From Thermodesulfovibrio sp. 3907-1M (GTDB taxonomy: Bacteria > Nitrospirota > Thermodesulfovibrionia > Thermodesulfovibrionales > Thermodesulfovibrionaceae), in the NCBI RefSeq assembly GCF_040450955.1, contig NZ_CP144373.1, positions 1,158,486 to 1,222,485 on the forward strand: 64,000 bases of DNA, in the 5' to 3' direction. A program made the translations under genes and the position numbers. The stretch's first letter is position 1; each line of letters starts with the position of its first letter. Of this stretch, positions 8,171-25,902 are shown one piece after another. The notes beneath the pieces were generated by a model, which searched no databases, was not told the origin of the DNA, and saw only the letters and a program-made list of their open reading frames with translations.

Positions 8171-8656
8171 ATGAAGAGAAGAAAAGCAAGGGAATATGTT
8201 TTACAATTTCTTTATGCCTGTGAAATGAATGAAAATACAAGAAAAATGTGTGATTACAATCTATTGCAGGAAGAAATTGAAAAATTCTGGGAAAGAAATA
8301 ATGAGGAGCAGGATCATGATATAAAAACATTTGCGAATCAATTGATAGAAGGAACGATTGCAAATATTGATGTTATTGATAAAACAATTCAAAAATACAC
8401 TGAAAAATGGCATTTAGAAAGAATTATCCCGATTGATAAAAATATTTTAAGATTTTCAATTTATGAAATATTATTTCGTCATGATATTCCCTATCAGGTC
8501 ACAATAAATGAAGCAGTGGAGATTGCAAAAAAATTTTCTACAAAAGAAAGTGCTGCCTTTATTAATGGAATTCTTGATAGAGTAGCAAAAAAAGAACTTT
8601 CTCGTTCTGAATCTGCTTATAACCCTATTGACAAAATTAATTTTGAAAAACTATAA
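8171..8656 (+). CDS. nusB: NusB transcription antitermination factor
   Basis: 161 residues, all-helical. RRKAREYVLQFLYACEMN at the N-terminus and the C-terminal pattern INEAVEIAKKFSTKESAAFINGILDRVAK are the conserved NusB core. It acts with NusA, NusE and NusG on rRNA operon antitermination. The ribH-nusB order is common in many phyla. The stop directly abuts the next start, so the hydrogenase genes may be read from the same transcript. Confidence 0.95.
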   Translation: MKRRKAREYVLQFLYACEMNENTRKMCDYNLLQEEIEKFWERNNEEQDHDIKTFANQLIEGTIANIDVIDKTIQKYTEKWHLERIIPIDKNILRFSIYEILFRHDIPYQVTINEAVEIAKKFSTKESAAFINGILDRVAKKELSRSESAYNPIDKINFEKL

Positions 8657-9754
8657 TTGACTACTTTTGTTTTTTTTGGGCAGAAAGTGAAAGTTGAACA
8701 ATATAAAATACTTGAAAAATCAAAAATTAATGATTTTATAAACTCTTTAATTTCTTTTTCCAAAGTAGCTGCTCCTGTCTACAAAGGCTATAACAACTAT
8801 GCATTTCAGGAAATAAAATCCGCTGATGAAGTAAGTCTGAAATATATCCCAACAATAATTCCACCGAAGAAATACTTTATGCCGCAGAAAGAAACTTTGC
8901 TAAAGTTTGATGTAAATGAGGACTTAAAAATTGAACCTGTTGTTGAATATGAAAATTTAGTCCTTTTTGGTGTCCATACCTGTGACATAGCTGGAATAAA
9001 ATGCCTGAATATGGTTCTTTCAGACAAACCAAAGGATACTGGCTATTTAATAAGAAAAAAACATATAACAATAATCGGGCTTGAGTGTAATGACTACTGC
9101 GATGAGTATGCAAGTTGCTCATTTGTAGGTGCTCATATTCCAACAACAGGATATGACTTGATGTTTACAGAACTCAGTGATTACTTTATCGTTCATATTC
9201 ATTCATCAAAGGGCTCTGATATTATTGAAAAAACTGGGTTATTTAAACCTGCTGAAACAGTTCACATTGAAGAACTCAAAGCATTGCGAAATAATAAACT
9301 GAAAATATTTAATAACGAAGTTCCAACAGAAAGAAGATATCTTCCAGACCTTTTTGACCGTTCCTTTAATGCATCTGTATGGAAAGAGCTTGAAACTAAG
9401 TGTCTTAGTTGCGGTAACTGCACAGCAGTCTGTCCCACATGTTACTGTTTTGATATAAAAGAAGAAGTGGATTTAACTCTTAAGGCAGGTGAAAGATACA
9501 GAGTGTGGTTTTCCTGTCAGCTTGATCCCTTTGCAAAGGTAGCTGGTGGAATAGATTTCCGAAGAGAGCGATCAGCAAGGCAGAGACATAGATTTTACAG
9601 AAAGTTTAGATATCACATAGACAGGTATGGTATGATTTTCTGTACAGGCTGTGGAAGATGCTCCAGAACATGCATGGCAAAAATTAATCTTAAAGAAGTT
9701 TTGACATCTCTCATAAAGGAGTCAGAGGCAAAAATATGGCGCAAGTGGTTATAA
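8657..9754 (+). CDS. hydB: Hydrogenase beta subunit (two [4Fe-4S] electron-transfer protein), group 3b type
   Basis: 365 residues read from TTG at 8657, directly after the nusB stop; a GTG at 8687 is an alternative, and no strong ribosome site favours either. Related to HydB of sulfhydrogenase and to anaerobic sulfite reductase subunit A. Two C-terminal ferredoxin-type clusters are visible: CLSCGNCTAVCPTCYC near residue 250 and CTGCGRCSRTCMAKI near 330. It passes electrons between the flavoprotein gamma subunit and the hydrogenase small subunit. First gene of a beta-gamma-delta-alpha set, the order known from Pyrococcus cytosolic hydrogenase I. Confidence 0.88.
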   Translation: MTTFVFFGQKVKVEQYKILEKSKINDFINSLISFSKVAAPVYKGYNNYAFQEIKSADEVSLKYIPTIIPPKKYFMPQKETLLKFDVNEDLKIEPVVEYENLVLFGVHTCDIAGIKCLNMVLSDKPKDTGYLIRKKHITIIGLECNDYCDEYASCSFVGAHIPTTGYDLMFTELSDYFIVHIHSSKGSDIIEKTGLFKPAETVHIEELKALRNNKLKIFNNEVPTERRYLPDLFDRSFNASVWKELETKCLSCGNCTAVCPTCYCFDIKEEVDLTLKAGERYRVWFSCQLDPFAKVAGGIDFRRERSARQRHRFYRKFRYHIDRYGMIFCTGCGRCSRTCMAKINLKEVLTSLIKESEAKIWRKWL

Positions 9755-10572
9755 AGGATTCACCCTATAATCTAAAAAAAGCAAGAATTCTTGATATAAA
9801 ATCTCTAACAGAAAAGGAAAAGCTTTTCAAAATAGCTTTTGAAAATAGCAGTTGGCTTGATTTTGAACCAGGCCAGTTCATAATGGTTTCACTTATGGGT
9901 ATTGGTGAAATCCCGGTTTCTATATGTTCCTCTCCTTTAAACAGGCACTATTTTGAAATATGCGTAAGAGCAGTTGGAAAAGTTACAAACTCTCTTCATA
10001 AACTAAATGCTGGAGACATTATCGGAGTTAGAGGTCCTTATGGGAATGGATTTCCAATTAAAATGATTGAAGGACATGATTTGTTAATAATTGCAGGAGG
10101 ATTGGGTCTTGCACCTCTTAGGTCATTGATACTCTATGCTATTGATAACAGAAGAGATTTTGGTGAAATACACATACTTTTTGGATGCAAAACCCCTGGA
10201 GAGCTTCTTTTTGCCGATGAAATTGAAGAGTGGAGTAAAAGACTTGATATACACTTTGCCTGCACAGTTGACAGAGCAGACCCTGACTGGAAGGGAAATG
10301 TGGGATTGATTACCTCTCTAATTCCTGGAGTTGATATAGACCCTGCGAGGACCTATGCTGCTGTAGTAGGACCTCCTGTTATGTATAAGTTCGTGATAAA
10401 AGAGCTTCTTGCAAAGGGATTGCCTGTGGACCAGATTCTTCTTAGCTTTGAAAGACACATGAAATGCGGGATGGGTAAATGTGGAAGATGTCAGATTCAA
10501 AATCTTTATTGCTGTAAAGATGGTCCTGTTTTCACATTTAAAGAAATAATGGATATGGCAGAGGCACTGTGA
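9736..10572 (+). CDS. hydG: Hydrogenase gamma subunit, FAD/NAD(P)-binding oxidoreductase
   Basis: 278 residues of the ferredoxin-NADP reductase fold. PGQFIMVSL and IPVSICSSP (FAD site) lie in the first third, GGLGLAPLRS (NAD(P) site) near residue 120, and a VVGPPVMYK motif follows. The C-terminus has a [2Fe-2S] cysteine set (C-GMGK-C-GR-C with a fourth Cys in YCC). It exchanges electrons between NAD(P)(H) and the hydrogenase. It overlaps hydB by 19 and hydD by 1 base. This is the hydrogenase gamma subunit and not the unrelated HydG maturase of [FeFe] hydrogenases. Confidence 0.88.
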   Translation: MAQVVIKDSPYNLKKARILDIKSLTEKEKLFKIAFENSSWLDFEPGQFIMVSLMGIGEIPVSICSSPLNRHYFEICVRAVGKVTNSLHKLNAGDIIGVRGPYGNGFPIKMIEGHDLLIIAGGLGLAPLRSLILYAIDNRRDFGEIHILFGCKTPGELLFADEIEEWSKRLDIHFACTVDRADPDWKGNVGLITSLIPGVDIDPARTYAAVVGPPVMYKFVIKELLAKGLPVDQILLSFERHMKCGMGKCGRCQIQNLYCCKDGPVFTFKEIMDMAEAL

Positions 10573-18655: not shown

Positions 18656-19462
18656 ATGAAAATTATAGTAGCTCTGATGTTTTCATTTTTACTTATGGTA
18701 AACACTGCAGTAGCTCAGGACAGTGTAATTGTCCTTGCAACAACCACTTCTGTGGAAAACTCAGGATTGCTAAGTCACATCCTGCCTGTTTTTGAGAAAA
18801 AAACAGGGATTAAGGTCAAGGTTGTTGCAAGAGGAACAGGTGCAGCAATTGAAATGGGTAAAAGAGGAGATGCTGATGCTGTGCTTGTCCATGCAAAGGA
18901 GCTTGAACTTGAAGGTGTAAGAGAGGGTTGGTTTGTAAACAGACACGATGTTTGCTACAATGATTTTATTATTGTGGGTCCAAAAAATGATCCTGCAAAA
19001 ATAAGAGAAGTTAAAAAAGCAGTGGATGCCTTTAAAAGAATTGCCTCTTCACAGAGCCTTTTTATTTCAAGAGGAGACAAATCAGGCACTCATGTAAAGG
19101 AATTACAGATATGGCAGAGGGCAGGAATTGAACCTAAAGGACAGAGGTGGTATCTTGAAGTAGGACAGGGAATGGAAAAGACTTTAAGAATTGCAAATGA
19201 AAAACAGGCATACACACTTACTGACAGGGGAACATGGCTTGCAATAAAAGACAAGCTTGAGTTAGCAATACTTTTTCAGGGAGACCCTGTTTTATTTAAT
19301 CAATACGGCGTTATGGCAGTTAACCCTGAAAAACATAAACATGTAAAATATAAAGAGGCAATGAAGTTTATAAACTGGATAATATCAAAGGAAGGGCAAG
19401 AGGCTATAGCATCATTTAAGGATAAGTTCGGGAATCAACTTTTTATTCCAAATGCAAAATGA
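18656..19462 (+). CDS. tupA: Tungstate ABC transporter, substrate-binding protein TupA
   Basis: 268 residues with a signal peptide ending AVA-Q near residue 20. The anion-site signature ATTTSVENSGLLSHILP follows, then RGTGAAIEMGKRGDADAVLVH, SRGDKSGTHVKEL and YTLTDRGTW, which match TupA/WtpA-like periplasmic oxyanion binders and not phosphate or sulfate binders. TupA is highly selective for tungstate in characterised cases. GGAGGTG precedes the ATG. Ends in a 4-base overlap with tupB. Confidence 0.92.
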   Translation: MKIIVALMFSFLLMVNTAVAQDSVIVLATTTSVENSGLLSHILPVFEKKTGIKVKVVARGTGAAIEMGKRGDADAVLVHAKELELEGVREGWFVNRHDVCYNDFIIVGPKNDPAKIREVKKAVDAFKRIASSQSLFISRGDKSGTHVKELQIWQRAGIEPKGQRWYLEVGQGMEKTLRIANEKQAYTLTDRGTWLAIKDKLELAILFQGDPVLFNQYGVMAVNPEKHKHVKYKEAMKFINWIISKEGQEAIASFKDKFGNQLFIPNAK

Positions 19463-20172
19463 ACTTTATCGTAGAGTCCTTTAAACAGGCATTTTATCTT
19501 ATTTTACACCTTGATAAAGAGCTGATGGAGATAATTCTTATGTCTCTGAGGGTTTCTCTTACAGCTCTTTTTATAGCAACAATTTCAGGGATACCTTTTG
19601 GTGCTTTTCTTGGATTAAAGAGTTTTTCAGGCAGGAACGCATTAATAACACTGGTTAATACATTCATGGGGCTTCCTCCTGTTGTTGTTGGATTGTTTCT
19701 CTATCTAATGCTATCGCGTAGTGGACCACTTGGTTTTTTAAGTCTTCTTTATACTCCTACTGCAATGATTATTGCCCAGAGCATTCTCGCATTCCCAATT
19801 GTTGCAGCCATTACCCATTCATCAATTGTTAAAGTGGACCCTGCAGTGAAACTCGCTGCAAAAACTCTTGGAGCCACTTCCTTTCAGATAGCAGTTACAG
19901 TAATAAAAGAAGCAAGATATGGAATAATGGCTGGAGTCTGTGCCGCTCTTGGAAGGGTTATGGCTGAAGTTGGAGCAATACTTATTGTTGGAGGAAATAT
20001 TGCAGGATATACCAGAGTAATGACAACAACAATCGCCCTTGAAACGGACAAAGGTAACTTTGAGCTTGCAATGGCACTTGGAATAATACTTCTACTAATT
20101 TCCTTTACAATAAACATTGTTTTATTTTCAATTCAGAAAAAAGGCATAAGGGAGTCAATCCAGTGGCTTTAA
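19459..20172 (+). CDS. tupB: Tungstate ABC transporter permease TupB
   Basis: 237 residues with about five to six transmembrane helices. The EAA loop that contacts the ATPase reads AAKTLGATSFQIAVTVIKEA...GIMAG near residues 133-155, and AEVGAILIVGGNI follows as in the CysT/ModB permease class. Operon position between tupA and the ATPase fixes the role. It overlaps tupA by 4 and tupC by 10 bases. Confidence 0.92.
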   Translation: MNFIVESFKQAFYLILHLDKELMEIILMSLRVSLTALFIATISGIPFGAFLGLKSFSGRNALITLVNTFMGLPPVVVGLFLYLMLSRSGPLGFLSLLYTPTAMIIAQSILAFPIVAAITHSSIVKVDPAVKLAAKTLGATSFQIAVTVIKEARYGIMAGVCAALGRVMAEVGAILIVGGNIAGYTRVMTTTIALETDKGNFELAMALGIILLLISFTINIVLFSIQKKGIRESIQWL

Positions 20173-20822
20173 GCCTTAGTATCTCCAATATTCATAAATC
20201 TTATAATGGCAGGATTATCCTTGATGAGTGTTCCTTTTCATTTGAAAAAAGCGGAGTCTATGTTTTAATGGGACCAAATGGCTCAGGAAAATCAACTCTT
20301 TTAAGAATATGTGCACTCTTAGAAAGCCCTGATAAGGGTGAAGTTATCTATTCTGATGAAGGAAAAGTTATTGAAAATGATCTAAATCTTAGAAGAAGGA
20401 TTACTTTGGTTTTACCAAACATTGGAGTTTTTAATGCAACGGTTTTTAAAAATGTTGCCTATGGCTTAGAAGTAAGAGGAATGAACAAAGAAGAAATAAA
20501 GGAAAGGGTTGAAAAAGCTCTTGATTTTGTTGGATTGTTACACAAGAAAAGTCAGAATGCCCTCAGTCTTTCAAGTGGAGAAGTAAAAAGAATGGGGATT
20601 GCCCGTGCAATTGTTTTAGAACCAGAGGTTTTGTTTCTTGATGAACCAACAGCGTCAGTGGATCACGAAAATACCAAAATAATTGAAGAAATTATTGTTC
20701 AGTTAAAACAAAGGCTTAACTCAGTAATTATCATGGCAACCCATGATTATCAATCAGCAAAAAAAGCTGGGGACATCTTTCTTTTTCTTGAAAAAGGAAA
20801 ACTTACTGTTTCCTTTCCCTAA
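20163..20822 (+). CDS. tupC: Tungstate ABC transporter ATPase TupC
   Basis: 219 residues from a GTG at 20163 inside the end of tupB. All ABC motifs are present: Walker A MGPNGSGKSTLL near residue 37, Q-loop replaced by LVLPNIGVFNATV, signature LSSGEVKRMGIAR near 138, Walker B EVLFLDEPTASVD near 158 and ATHD switch His. The Q-loop lacks the usual Gln (family often LVFQ); the TupC/WtpC group varies here. It energises tungstate import from the cytoplasmic side. Confidence 0.9.
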   Translation: MALSLSISNIHKSYNGRIILDECSFSFEKSGVYVLMGPNGSGKSTLLRICALLESPDKGEVIYSDEGKVIENDLNLRRRITLVLPNIGVFNATVFKNVAYGLEVRGMNKEEIKERVEKALDFVGLLHKKSQNALSLSSGEVKRMGIARAIVLEPEVLFLDEPTASVDHENTKIIEEIIVQLKQRLNSVIIMATHDYQSAKKAGDIFLFLEKGKLTVSFP

Positions 20823-21666: not shown

Positions 21667-21714
21667 GCTCTTTGAGCAACCGCCATTTGGGCGATTCAAG
21701 TTCAAGGCTCAAAG
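21667..21714. other. Nested hairpin between the glycosyltransferase gene and the protease gene
   Basis: Outer arms CTTTGAGC (21670-21677) and GCTCAAAG (21707-21714) enclose an inner stem CGCC/GGCG (21681-21684 with 21690-21693). The stop codon of the upstream gene lies in the outer stem. There is no U-run, so this may be an RNA processing or weak pausing structure at the end of the 12-kb flg transcript rather than an intrinsic terminator. Confidence 0.35.
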
Positions 21715-23850
21715 CTTATCACCTTTTCCCCAGATTATTTCTACTGCTGAGTATTTTATTGCCTTTTTTATGATTTCTTCAAGATTAATTGAATTTTTCC
21801 CCTTCACGGCAATGGCATATTGAAAATTACCAAGCAGCCGAGAGTTTAGATAAAGAGGTTTTAAAGTTTCTAAGACGATTGCTTTCGTTAAATTTGTATC
21901 AATATTTATAGTCTTTCCATCAGGAAGTTTAAGATTAACACTAAAAGGATTTACTCCTTCAAGAACTGTTCCTGGGATCAAAGGCTCTGTAAATAAATGC
22001 ACCTCATCAAATCCAGCTTTCTTAAGCGAATAATGAAGTGTCCATGGCTTCCATCGTGTTACATGATGGGGTGGATAATCATTATACCACCATTTGTATT
22101 TTCTGTATCCCTTAGCTGTGTTTTCAAATTTATAAAATGGCGGACAGCTTAGAATAAAAATGCCTTCTTGTTTGAGAAGAAAGTATATATCAGTTAAAAA
22201 TTTCATGGGTTCATGAACATGCTCTAAAACCTCAAAGGCTGTGATAATGTCATAGGGATTTTTAACCTCCTCAGAAAGTTCATCAAGAGTTAAAGCCTGA
22301 ACAACATTCAATTTAAATTTATCCTTTGCGATTTTTACTGCCTTCTCTGAAGCCTCCATCCCGTAAACTTCAAACCCGAGTTTTTTTGCTATGAGCATAA
22401 AAAATCCAGTGGAACAACCAATATCAAGCAGTCTTCCCTTTGGAAGCAGTGACAGAATTGGAATTAATATATTAAATCTCGGTAGTCTGCTCCAGTTCTC
22501 TATCTCTACTTTTTCGTCTTTCAAATTCTGATAAAACTCATAAGACAATTCACCAAACTTAAGTAGATTATCATATTCTTTATCGTATGCCTCATCATAA
22601 TCCATAACCTTCATGGGATAGGTAAACTGCAAACCACAGGAAGGGCATTCAAACACTCTTGCACTATTTATTACTTCAAAGAGAGGTATATCTCCGTTAA
22701 AATCACATACAATACATCTTTCAGGCTTTTCATATTCTTTCTGAAGCAGCAATTCAGCATCTTTAAGGGCAAGATAAATGACTTTTGGTGGAATACTGTC
22801 TATGCAGGGGCTGTAAAACTGCCTTTTTACCTGAGCTTCAATGCAAGGCTCTGTAGTGGCATGCTGCATGCAGGGAGAAATACATGTCTGCCCTTTATAG
22901 TTCGGTGAAACAGGTATAACTGTGGAATAATTTGACGCTCTTAATTCTGCATCAATTGGTCCTGAAATAAGCACAGTAGGCTTACCCAAGCCTGCAGCTA
23001 TATGAAGCGTTGCTGTATCAGCTGTAATAACAGCATCTGAGAGCGCCACAGAAGCAATCAGATACTTAATATCCTTCATGAAAACTGAAAAGTTTGCAGC
23101 CCTTATCCCGTATACATCAAGAGCTGTCTCAACAGTTATGTCTTCATCTGGAAGTGCACATATTACAGGCACATATTCATCCCAGATTAAATCTTCTATT
23201 TCTTTTAAAAGTCTTGGAGGTAATGTTCTATGAACAGATGAGGCAAGGTAATGAAAAAGCAAAACTTTTTTACCACCCGAGGCCTCCCTTATTCTGTCAA
23301 ATCGCTCCTTCATCTCATGTAAAATTGCTTCATCCACAAGTACATCTGGAGTCTCTTTTTCTGCCTTATAAATGTAAAGTTTCCATAAATAGTAATCAAT
23401 CAAAGAGAGGTTGTCAAACTGTGGTGTATTAACCATCTCTACAACTTTAACAATGTAATCAGCCCTTGCTACCTCTTTAAATGGAATGGGCATAGGAAGT
23501 AAATTATCAATATAGGGCAAACCTTCAAGCACAGGCTTTGCTCTTCCAGAGATGCTTACATTAAGAGTCATATCCGGATACTTCTTTTTAATCTCCCTTA
23601 ATGCAGGCGTCATACAAAGAGCATCACCAATTGCTGCCTGAGCTATGACGAGGAGAGTTTTACCTCTGAGAGGTTCACCTTTGTAAAAAGGTGGAAGCAC
23701 GCTGTGTGCCTGCTCAAAGGCTGATTTTGCCTGTTCTGGAAGAAGGTTGAACACATCATCAGCAAAGAGAAACTTATCTCCTGGTTTAATATGAAAATCA
23801 TAACCATTAAAATTCAGCTCAATTCTACCTTTTGCCTTCCAGACTTTCAC
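21709..23850 (-). CDS. GT9-type glycosyltransferase fused to a SAM methyltransferase
   Basis: 713 residues from a GTG overlapping the fliW stop. Residues about 60-370 resemble ADP-heptose:LPS heptosyltransferases (family GT9): GKTLLVIAQAAIGDALCMTPALREIKKKYP and, near residue 275, TADTATLHIAAGLGKPTV. A cysteine pair module (CIVC and CPSCG, residues about 380-410) follows. A class I methyltransferase has motif I LLDIGCSTGFFMLIA near 473 and EVLEHVHEP near 545. Its position after csrA-fliW at the end of the flg operon suggests it glycosylates and methylates flagellin or another surface glycan; substrate is not shown by sequence. Confidence 0.82.
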   Translation of the reverse strand: MKVWKAKGRIELNFNGYDFHIKPGDKFLFADDVFNLLPEQAKSAFEQAHSVLPPFYKGEPLRGKTLLVIAQAAIGDALCMTPALREIKKKYPDMTLNVSISGRAKPVLEGLPYIDNLLPMPIPFKEVARADYIVKVVEMVNTPQFDNLSLIDYYLWKLYIYKAEKETPDVLVDEAILHEMKERFDRIREASGGKKVLLFHYLASSVHRTLPPRLLKEIEDLIWDEYVPVICALPDEDITVETALDVYGIRAANFSVFMKDIKYLIASVALSDAVITADTATLHIAAGLGKPTVLISGPIDAELRASNYSTVIPVSPNYKGQTCISPCMQHATTEPCIEAQVKRQFYSPCIDSIPPKVIYLALKDAELLLQKEYEKPERCIVCDFNGDIPLFEVINSARVFECPSCGLQFTYPMKVMDYDEAYDKEYDNLLKFGELSYEFYQNLKDEKVEIENWSRLPRFNILIPILSLLPKGRLLDIGCSTGFFMLIAKKLGFEVYGMEASEKAVKIAKDKFKLNVVQALTLDELSEEVKNPYDIITAFEVLEHVHEPMKFLTDIYFLLKQEGIFILSCPPFYKFENTAKGYRKYKWWYNDYPPHHVTRWKPWTLHYSLKKAGFDEVHLFTEPLIPGTVLEGVNPFSVNLKLPDGKTINIDTNLTKAIVLETLKPLYLNSRLLGNFQYAIAVKGKNSINLEEIIKKAIKYSAVEIIWGKGDKL

Positions 23851-24257
23851 TTTCTTATTGGCTCCTTAAAGCTGTATCTTTCATCTTCAAGGAGAATCTG
23901 GACCCCAATTTTTTTATTCCTGTTAATTACAAAAGGAGACTTAAGATTGGCTGCTACTCCATCGTTGTATTTTAACAGTGCTACATAAACCTCTATATCC
24001 TCTTGCTTTTCTGCTTCAAGTACTGATGCAATCTCCTCACTGAGTTCAAATCCATAGGTAGGGAAATAGTTAAATGGAGAGACAACAAGCATTGCCACAT
24101 CAGGGTCATCCACGGCAATAAGCCATTTTACAGGATCAATAAGCTCCTTTAGAATAAATCTCTCAAAGGGAACTCCAGGGATTCCGTAGGGAAAGTTAAT
24201 TATTTCATTTTCATCAATCTGAAGTTCACCAAATCTTTCTGTATTAATCTTTATCAC
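23847..24257 (-). CDS. fliW: FliW, flagellar assembly factor
   Basis: 136 residues from a GTG overlapping the csrA stop (GTGA). RFGELQIDENEIINFPYGIPGVP at the N-terminus and the middle IAVDDPDVAMLVVSPF are the FliW signature. FliW binds CsrA and flagellin (FliC) in a partner switch, freeing CsrA targets when flagellin is exported. It is directly after csrA, the classic pairing, and overlaps the next gene by 4 bases. Confidence 0.95.
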   Translation of the reverse strand: MIKINTERFGELQIDENEIINFPYGIPGVPFERFILKELIDPVKWLIAVDDPDVAMLVVSPFNYFPTYGFELSEEIASVLEAEKQEDIEVYVALLKYNDGVAANLKSPFVINRNKKIGVQILLEDERYSFKEPIRK

Positions 24258-24472
24258 TTTATCAAATCCTCCGCTTTTAATTCCTTTGAAGCCTTCAATG
24301 CCTCTATGTTACTCTCTTTGAGTTTTTCATATAATTCTTCTCTAAAAATGGGAACACCCTTTGGTGCTTCAATGCCGATTTTTACCTGAGAGCCATCAAC
24401 ATCAACGATTTTAATCAGAATATCATCGCCCACTCTTATTGATTGACCTTGTTTTCTTGTAAGTATTAACAA
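24254..24472 (-). CDS. csrA: CsrA, post-transcriptional regulator
   Basis: 72 residues from a TTG at 24472 with GAGGTAG just upstream. MLILTRKQGQSIRVGDDI is the canonical CsrA start (beta 1, including the Arg used for GGA binding), followed by VKIGIEAPKGVPIFREELYE. CsrA dimers block translation at GGA stem-loops, notably of flagellin mRNA. Sits 2 bases after flgL and overlaps fliW by 4. Confidence 0.96.
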   Translation of the reverse strand: MLILTRKQGQSIRVGDDILIKIVDVDGSQVKIGIEAPKGVPIFREELYEKLKESNIEALKASKELKAEDLIK

Positions 24473-24474
24473 AG

Positions 24475-25902
24475 CTACCTCAGAAAATCAAAAAGATTAC
24501 TACGGAAAAAGTCCGTTAATGTAACCCTTAATGCCTGCAGTACTGTCATCCTCTGATTAAGCTCTGAAATAACCTGAACAGCATCTACATCACGATCATT
24601 TGAAAGAGACTGTTTAGTGTTTGTTTCCACATCAAGGTTATAGTCTGAAATATTTTCAATTTTGCTAAGCCTTGCTCCAATTTGAGACTGCTGTGAGTAA
24701 AGTTTGTCTGCAATTTTGTCAAGATATCCTACTGCTTTCTGAATTCTTCCTTGATCATTGTTTTCAAGGGCTACCTTAAGAAAATAAAGAGCTCTGAGAT
24801 AGTAGTTTTCATTGAGATAGTTGTTATTGAAGCTGTAGTAGTCAGGATCAGCGGGATCGGTTATGTAGTTGTATCCATTTATGTTTTCCTGAAAACTCAT
24901 TGAAACATTGCCAGATTCAGGATTATAAGCTAAAAGATTGAGATTATCTGCTGATGGAGCATTTACATCAATTCTTATTTTGTCTGCTTTTCCATTGGGA
25001 ATGCTTGAAATAACCAGTCGGTAGTCAGGAGAGGCTGAAGTTCCTGTATTTACAACCCATGCTTTCACATATCTGGAAACCTGTGGATCATTGTTTATTG
25101 CATCTCTAATGTCATTCAAAGAAGCATTAGCTGAAATATTAACAGTTACAGCCTGATTATCTGCAAACTTGACTGTTAAAGTTCCTCCATTGCTGGTGAA
25201 AGATGATGAAGGATCAGTTATAGGACCACCTGAAGGCTGTGGCATTAGCAAAGCTCCAAGAGGATCTGCATCATAAGGAGCATTAGGGTCTAAAGTAAAG
25301 TTGTAATTATAGGGAGTAAAAACTTTCAAACTTCTGTTAGGATCTAACGGATCTACTGTATAGGTAAAAAACTCTGTTGCTGGAAGATTCACAGCTACAT
25401 CAAGGAAAAAGCTTATATCAAGATACTGAAAATTGGTGTCTGCCTGATAAAGCCCTGTTTGAGCATTAACTGGAGCAGTATCTGCCTTAAATCCAGCAAA
25501 AATATATCTTCCTGCTACCTTTGTATTTATTGTTTCAATACTTCTCTGAATTAATGTATCCACTTCTCTTGCCAGTGCCAGTCTATCAATAGCTGAAAGG
25601 GTATCTGTTGAACCCTGAACAGCGTAAGTTTTTGCCTTTATCAGCATGTTTTTAAGATCATCAATTGCTGTTTCAATGGAAGAGTTGTAGTTTTTTGCCG
25701 TATCCATCACTCTCTTGTACTCATCAAGAGCAGAAATTTCAGAGTTATATTTGACAATTCTTGATACAGCTACAGGATCATCCCCTGGTGAAAGGACCCT
25801 TTTGCCTGTGGCAAGTTGCTGTTGAGCTTTATACATTGCATCAAGCTGTTTGTTAAGGTCATTCAAAAATGTTTTGTAAAAAAAGCCTGTTGTAACTTTC
25901 AT
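24475..25902 (-). CDS. flgL: FlgL, hook-filament junction protein (HAP3)
   Basis: 475 residues, flagellin-like. The N-terminal helix contains LNKQLDAMYKAQQQLATGKRVLSPGDDPVA, and the C-terminus ends with the coiled-coil DYNLDVETNTKQSLSNDRDVDAV...LRVTLTDFF pattern. A large middle domain (about residues 150-370) is beta-rich. It is longer than the E. coli protein (317). It joins FlgK to the filament. Two bases separate it from flgK. Confidence 0.93.
   Translation of the reverse strand: MKVTTGFFYKTFLNDLNKQLDAMYKAQQQLATGKRVLSPGDDPVAVSRIVKYNSEISALDEYKRVMDTAKNYNSSIETAIDDLKNMLIKAKTYAVQGSTDTLSAIDRLALAREVDTLIQRSIETINTKVAGRYIFAGFKADTAPVNAQTGLYQADTNFQYLDISFFLDVAVNLPATEFFTYTVDPLDPNRSLKVFTPYNYNFTLDPNAPYDADPLGALLMPQPSGGPITDPSSSFTSNGGTLTVKFADNQAVTVNISANASLNDIRDAINNDPQVSRYVKAWVVNTGTSASPDYRLVISSIPNGKADKIRIDVNAPSADNLNLLAYNPESGNVSMSFQENINGYNYITDPADPDYYSFNNNYLNENYYLRALYFLKVALENNDQGRIQKAVGYLDKIADKLYSQQSQIGARLSKIENISDYNLDVETNTKQSLSNDRDVDAVQVISELNQRMTVLQALRVTLTDFFRSNLFDFLR

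Follow-up and report, generated by a model that had tools for sequence, protein, structure and literature searches.

A GT9-like glycosyltransferase-methyltransferase fusion behind csrA and fliW in Thermodesulfovibrio as a candidate flagellin-modifying enzyme

GT9 glycosyltransferases mostly build the LPS core, and a GT9-like enzyme that is fused to a methyltransferase and encoded at the end of a flagellar gene run raises the question of what it modifies. Such a gene is found in Thermodesulfovibrio sp. 3907-1M, in a stretch of 64,000 nucleotides (contig NZ_CP144373.1, positions 1,158,486 to 1,222,485 of the forward strand) that we call here the window. The genome to which it belongs is a single contig of 1.94 Mb.

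The fusion gene and its domains

The gene run flgK-flgL-csrA-fliW ends with the fusion gene (21709..23850, minus strand), which has a GTG start and encodes 713 residues. Judging from its orthologues this is a real gene and not a chance ORF, because 12 further genomes of the genus encode the fusion at 73-82% identity with an aligned start (78-80% in Thermodesulfovibrio sp. relatives including strain N1); nine of these proteins begin with MKVWKAK like the window protein, two have one residue of it changed and one has two. On the same strand, fliW (23847..24257; PF02623, 100.9 bits, above the Pfam cut-off) shares four bases with the fusion gene at 23847-23850 and is itself overlapped by four bases by csrA (24254..24472; PF02599, 85.9 bits, above the Pfam cut-off), and the gene upstream of them in the run (24475..25902, minus strand; PF00669, 58.6 bits) was named flgL from its position and length. 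A gene for an SDH-family serine protease lies 60 bases past the fusion gene. Promoter and terminator scans gave sites no more numerous than in shuffled sequences. The genome has two Flagellin_N matches, flgL and another about 173 kb away; its fliC lies about 173 kb from the fusion gene, in a neighbourhood whose ORFs yielded no fusion homologue. Since we see no gene for sugar biosynthesis next to the fusion in the window, the modification in this species may be simple.

The initial annotation had proposed a GT9-like domain, a Cys-pair module and a SAM methyltransferase on one 713-residue chain overlapping fliW by four bases, and the reading frame and the profile matches confirm the fusion and the overlap. 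The conserved cysteines are also present, in two quartets rather than in a single Cys-pair module. Residues 1-60 (23671..23850, minus strand, as are all the following features) form an N-terminal extension that aligns by hhalign to the standalone relatives described below; beta strands are weakly predicted in residues 1-50, which appear as blocks at pLDDT 56-74 in two otherwise low-confidence AlphaFold2 models (mean pLDDT 46.3 at full length with 8 sequences and 37.0 for the glycosyltransferase domain alone with 7 sequences) that do not confirm the GT-B fold of family GT9. The GT9-like domain spans residues 61-370 (22741..23670), with D76 in its GD motif and, at its end, the C323-C327-C336-C349 cluster (22804..22884), which reads TC.SPC...PC.EA...YSPC in the window protein. 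A putative zinc-ribbon-like module, C379-x2-C382 ... C402-x2-C405 (22636..22716), precedes the class I SAM methyltransferase domain (Methyltransf_23) at residues 468-618 (21997..22449), for which the window protein scores 70.8 bits with PF13489 (E 1.4e-19; cut-off 27).

Conservation was read from an alignment of 20 rows (A2), consisting of 6 of the 13 genus orthologues and 14 of the 20 close homologues from the class of the Caldimicrobium genome G400, with partial and near-duplicate homologues left out. D76, S204, S205, H207, R208, D278, T279 and H283 are invariant, as are C327, C336, C349, C379, C382, C402 and C405, C323 being found in 19/20 rows. All 20 rows match Methyltransf_23 at E <= 0.1, and D476 and G478 of methyltransferase motif I are present in 19. 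The remaining row (L135:6744-8774, genome G428) is a fusion without motif I that matches the Pfam model at this threshold all the same; its glycosyltransferase part is 72% identical, and glycosyltransferase function may persist there alone.

The window protein by itself scores 19.8 bits with Glyco_transf_9 (PF01075), below the cut-off of 22, which is passed by six distant fused, standalone or related proteins (28.9-40.7 bits). Comparison by hhalign with five ordinary GT9 proteins gave a probability of 99.1% (E 8e-19), and a PDB profile search found the ADP-heptose LPS heptosyltransferase II 1psw (E 2.2e-6). At the level of sequence profiles the domain thus belongs to GT9 through its relatives and the hhalign comparison. 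D76, the GD-motif acidic residue, falls inside the stretch aligned to 1psw; in WaaC the corresponding N-terminal GD-motif residue is Asp13. In TibC, the accessible text of the report names Asp-110 as the candidate base (PMC4358343). The best NCBIfam match of the glycosyltransferase domain is LPS heptosyltransferase II (TIGR02195), an identity that we rejected at 44.4 bits against an equivalog cut-off of 134.6.

Membership in the TibC/AAH group of autotransporter heptosyltransferases (TIGR04414) was considered for the four-Cys finger. According to the part of PMC4358343 available, these enzymes are heptosyltransferase-like and modify protein, and TibC has an N-terminal beta domain (only weakly predicted in the fusion) and a four-Cys iron finger inserted in its C lobe, with cysteines spaced x2-x15-x11 as against x3-x8-x12 in the C323-C349 cluster of the fusion; that part does not mention a methyltransferase, unlike what is found here. 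The candidate was discarded, as TIGR04414 has no match at the fusion locus in the 16 genus genomes at E up to 10; elsewhere in these genomes it gives weak matches, in 0/16 above the cut-off. Because three ordinary GT9 proteins of the genus also carry Cys quartets, spaced more tightly than those of the fusion, the cluster is, on sequence grounds, no special proof of TibC-type membership.

Distribution and linkage to flagellin genes

The full-length fusion is present in 13/16 genus genomes and fliW in 14/16, the two without fliW being 56 and 63% complete. In 13 of the 14 FliW-bearing genomes the fusion lies on the same strand downstream of fliW. The exception, G004, is 99% complete and has fliC and fliW without the fusion, an HDOD gene following fliW. 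With a looser threshold three genomes match the methyltransferase part only (E 1e-21 to 5e-23), one of them outside the genus and one being G004. In the phylum of the window genome, a scan of 395 genomes that scored two candidates per genome found matches at E <= 1e-40 in 10, all in the genus. The class of G400 is another matter, since 26 of its 41 genomes match at E <= 1e-30, 20 with close and 6 with distant homologues. The 14 close ones that were aligned are 51-66% identical; 16 are near full length and 4 are partial or cut by contig ends. Across the phylum of G400, 20/395 genomes match the glycosyltransferase profile at E <= 1e-15: eight carry a close and two a distant fusion, nine have standalone or differently assembled proteins, and one has a remnant. 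A scan of viral contigs found no relative.

The standalone GT9-like proteins of that phylum (387-435 aa; 9 proteins from 8 genomes in alignment A7) match the fusion profile over 361 columns, N-terminal extension included (E 4e-52), and five of the six compared in this region have a clear TC..PC ... GCPEA ... SPC cluster. They differ in that the chain lacks a methyltransferase in the three scanned with Pfam. In 3/8 of their neighbourhoods (L193, L196, L199) fliC, fliS or cheR is found nearby.

Flagellin glycosylation, suggested by the initial annotation from the locus, is well supported by comparative genomics, namely by the proximity of fliC, by co-occurrence with one FliC type and by the Maf and NeuB neighbours of a distant fusion. 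Among the class genomes, 20 encode a FliC 49-74% identical to that of the window genome and 7 another type (27-39% over the matched part); close homologues of the fusion accompany the former in 17/20 and the latter in 0/7 (Fisher p 1.4e-4, computed as if the genomes were independent, which by phylogeny they are not), with the FliC types probably tracking lineage. The matching FliC occurs without a close homologue in G431, where a remnant is found, and in G433 and G413, where fliC stands at a contig end. Fourteen class genomes yielded neither FliC type, and of these three have a close and three a distant homologue. When any Flagellin_N match is counted, which FlgL also gives, it is present in 25/26 class genomes with a fusion match and in 12/15 without (one of the 12 below the Pfam cut-off), a profile that is weak by itself, the contrast being seen only after the FliC types are separated.

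Physical linkage to flagellin genes also recurs, with exceptions. In the 17 genomes with both a close homologue and the matching flagellin, seven homologues lie within 5 kb of it (157-4,161 bases from the Flagellin_N match), two at 21-32 kb, two at more than 560 kb and six on another contig; in two genomes with contigs of about 1.8 Mb the fusion is more than 500 kb from fliC. A binomial estimate for at least 7/17 within 6 kb is 1.3e-10, on an assumption of independence that related genomes violate. Of the three distant homologues for which the distance to the flagellin match could be read, two lie at 3.5-3.8 kb and one on another contig. Relative to the flagellin genes, the fusion in the class is divergent (from fliC-flaG-fliD-fliS), convergent (with fliC) or codirectional; since its orientation varies, inheritance of one arrangement does not by itself account for the linkage. 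In G434, a distant fused homologue has a large fliC on one side and, on the other, genes encoding Maf, a cytidylyltransferase and two NeuB proteins.

Several observations concern individual flagellin loci. The MptE-like domain of Maf has no match in the window genome and is found in 3/16 genus genomes (L205, L206 and L207, in G013, G015 and G005), two of these genes being about 0.8 kb and the third 4.3 kb from a Flagellin_N match. In G431 (L200:7429-7647 and 8407-9978), a 72-aa ORF near fliC has 51 residues that match the start of the fusion (49%) and, by this likeness, is a remnant of it at a flagellin locus; a NTase_sub_bind/HepT-like gene stands between it and fliC. The middle part of the G004 FliC is the most divergent of the genus, 37% identical to the FliC of the window genome as against 41-81% in the 11 other genomes with a full-length FliC (the partial FliC of G003 was set aside). 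An unconstrained tree puts this FliC outside the genus group, and because a constraint keeping the genus together is not rejected (p-AU 0.706) we draw no conclusion from its placement.

Proposed function and alternatives

On these sequence comparisons, we think it quite likely that the fusion is a two-step flagellin-modifying enzyme whose GT9-like half adds a sugar and whose SAM-dependent half methylates that same sugar. What we observe are the domains, the conserved residues of catalytic type, the run of flagellar genes and the repeated association with flagellin genes; from these we infer the substrate, the donor, the order and timing of the steps and the target of methylation. The GT9-like half would act in the cytoplasm before flagellin export, taking a sugar from a nucleotide-sugar donor and attaching it to flagellin itself or to a sugar that flagellin carries already, and the SAM-dependent half would then methylate the transferred sugar. 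The position behind csrA-fliW would place the enzyme in the flagellar gene set, so that it would be made when flagellin is. The donor would probably be ADP-heptose or a similar sugar from general metabolism. The model for rfaE domain II, which we take to be the heptose nucleotidyltransferase, passes its cut-off in 15/16 genus genomes, G004 included, so that ADP-heptose is probably available in the genus, though availability does not make it the donor. That the sugar is methylated is plausible by analogy with the bifunctional GT2 of C. difficile, as described in the portion of PMC5207246 at hand.

We regard it as possible, if on balance unlikely, that the fusion glycosylates flagellin while its methyltransferase half has another target than the sugar added by its own chain, either the protein or a glycan that other enzymes make. 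A search for partner genes (tblastn, E <= 1e-8, in 6-16 kb around each of the 17 close class loci L119-L135) found a SapC-family gene in 12 and a GT2-type gene in 5, never both, and a sulfotransferase gene in 3, so that several enzymes may take part in making the glycan; N-methylases of flagellin (FliB) are also known, according to the accessible part of PMC4875605. Against this, Mtf23, of the same Pfam family as the methyltransferase half, occurs in a flagellar variable region and is read there as glycan-decorating (PMC6993521, in the text available), and the flagellin islands described in the available parts of PMC4875605 and PMC5207246 hold methyltransferases joined to GT2- and GT41-type glycosyltransferases.

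The initial annotation also tied the enzyme translationally to fliW. The four-base overlap stands for the window and is found at 6 of the 13 fliW-fusion junctions of the genus, but as a general tie the claim was overstated, for the others have gaps of 3, 10, 19, 22 and 32 bases in five genomes and of 185 in one, and a gene pair inserted in one. In this last genome (G002, L076:7243-7957) the pair separating fliW from the fusion consists of a HEPN and a nucleotidyltransferase gene. Neither FliW nor CsrA was matched at any of the 17 loci with close homologues in the class, although one distant homologue (L138) has a FliW gene about 6 kb off. Short gene overlaps are, moreover, common in bacterial operons, and we consider it improbable that the overlap is a regulatory device that sets the amount of enzyme to FliW and CsrA. 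Coupling to fliW is possible in the window species, judging from the overlap, and is not a fixed trait.

A surface-polysaccharide or LPS glycosyltransferase-methyltransferase that sits among flagellar genes by chance is, we think, improbable, for while the usual role of GT9 enzymes, the LPS heptosyltransferases that give the best NCBIfam matches and the rfaE domain II matches of the genus speak for it, the heptosyltransferase II score falls far short of its cut-off, the genome has its other GT9-like matches in different places (about 686, 1838 and 1849-1857 kb, the last group within an ORF run that looks glycosyltransferase-like by eye), and linkage to fliC or fliW recurs in two taxa.

History of the fusion and its place among known systems

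In the glycosyltransferase tree the genus forms one group (SH-aLRT 99) within a well-separated clade that it shares with the class homologues. The fusions of two class genomes share 59% identity with that of the window, as against 31-43% for FliD, FliS, FlaG and the aligned portions of FlgL and FlgK, an excess that fits horizontal transfer. Differing rates may also explain it, because FliC (54-57% in the same two genomes) and the SDH protease (64-66% in three others) are well conserved too. The distant fusions do not group with the close ones; they occupy long branches, flagged as unsure by the tree program, and the joining of glycosyltransferase and methyltransferase may have happened twice.

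Other genes of these loci are shared by the two groups. A three-gene ABC transporter lies a few kb from the fusion in the window (18656-20822) and at L128:2638-4816, L129:12131-14309 and L130:11299-13471; the transporters of the window and class loci are alike by eye, with a substrate-binding protein that carries TTTSVENSGLLS. A gene for an SDH-family protease is also found a few kb from the fusion in L120, L121 and L123, and transporter and protease may be an old shared block. The FliC of G420, a genome of the class of G400 (L121:9149-10687), shows 74-75% identity to the FliC of the window genome, with the middle part counted in, and clusters with 12 Thermodesulfovibrio flagellins (support 100/99), which suggests an exchange of flagellin between phyla.

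Fused glycosyltransferase-methyltransferases of flagellin loci (GT2, GT41; PMC5207246, PMC4875605) and GT9 genes of an Enterobacterales flagellar region (PMC6993521) are already reported, as far as the accessible parts of these papers go, and the present fusion is most likely a GT9-based variant of the former. One of these, in the available text of PMC5207246, is GT2 of the C. difficile type B flagellin locus (CDR20291_0242), a proposed bifunctional rhamnosyltransferase-methyltransferase that joins a glycosyltransferase and a SAM methyltransferase on one chain and is proposed to add and methylate the same sugar, as we propose here; it differs in being of the Pfam 00535 (GT2) and not the GT9 type, and in extending a GlcNAc put on by a separate enzyme. 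The GT41- and GT2-methyltransferases of enterobacterial islands are likewise flagellin-linked glycosyltransferases with methyltransferase domains, but belong to other families and to multi-gene islands (PMC4875605, in part); the terms "GT9", "heptosyl" and "family 9" are absent from the main text of that paper. The enterobacterial flag-2 proteins GT9-1 to GT9-5, which we liken to the fusion by description only, are GT9s encoded in a flagellin glycosylation region together with Mtf23 methyltransferases, and no fusion is described for them in the accessible part of PMC6993521. In the openly licensed literature we found no report of a GT9-methyltransferase fusion in flagellin glycosylation and no flagellin-glycan paper for Thermodesulfovibrio or Thermodesulfobacteria.

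A more far-reaching version, which we hold to be doubtful, would make the fusion a one-gene flagellin glycosylation system, that is, a second protein-modifying GT9 lineage, distinct from the TibC group, whose members attach an O-methylated heptose (or a similar sugar) directly to flagellin and which has passed between two thermophile phyla and is matched to one flagellin type. If the proposed function is true, GT9 enzymes, known mainly from LPS, would join the fused glycosyltransferase-methyltransferases that modify flagellin, and Thermodesulfovibrio and Thermodesulfobacteria would have a testable single-gene candidate for a flagellin glycan, with G004, which has flagellin and fliW and no fusion gene, as a natural control within the genus.
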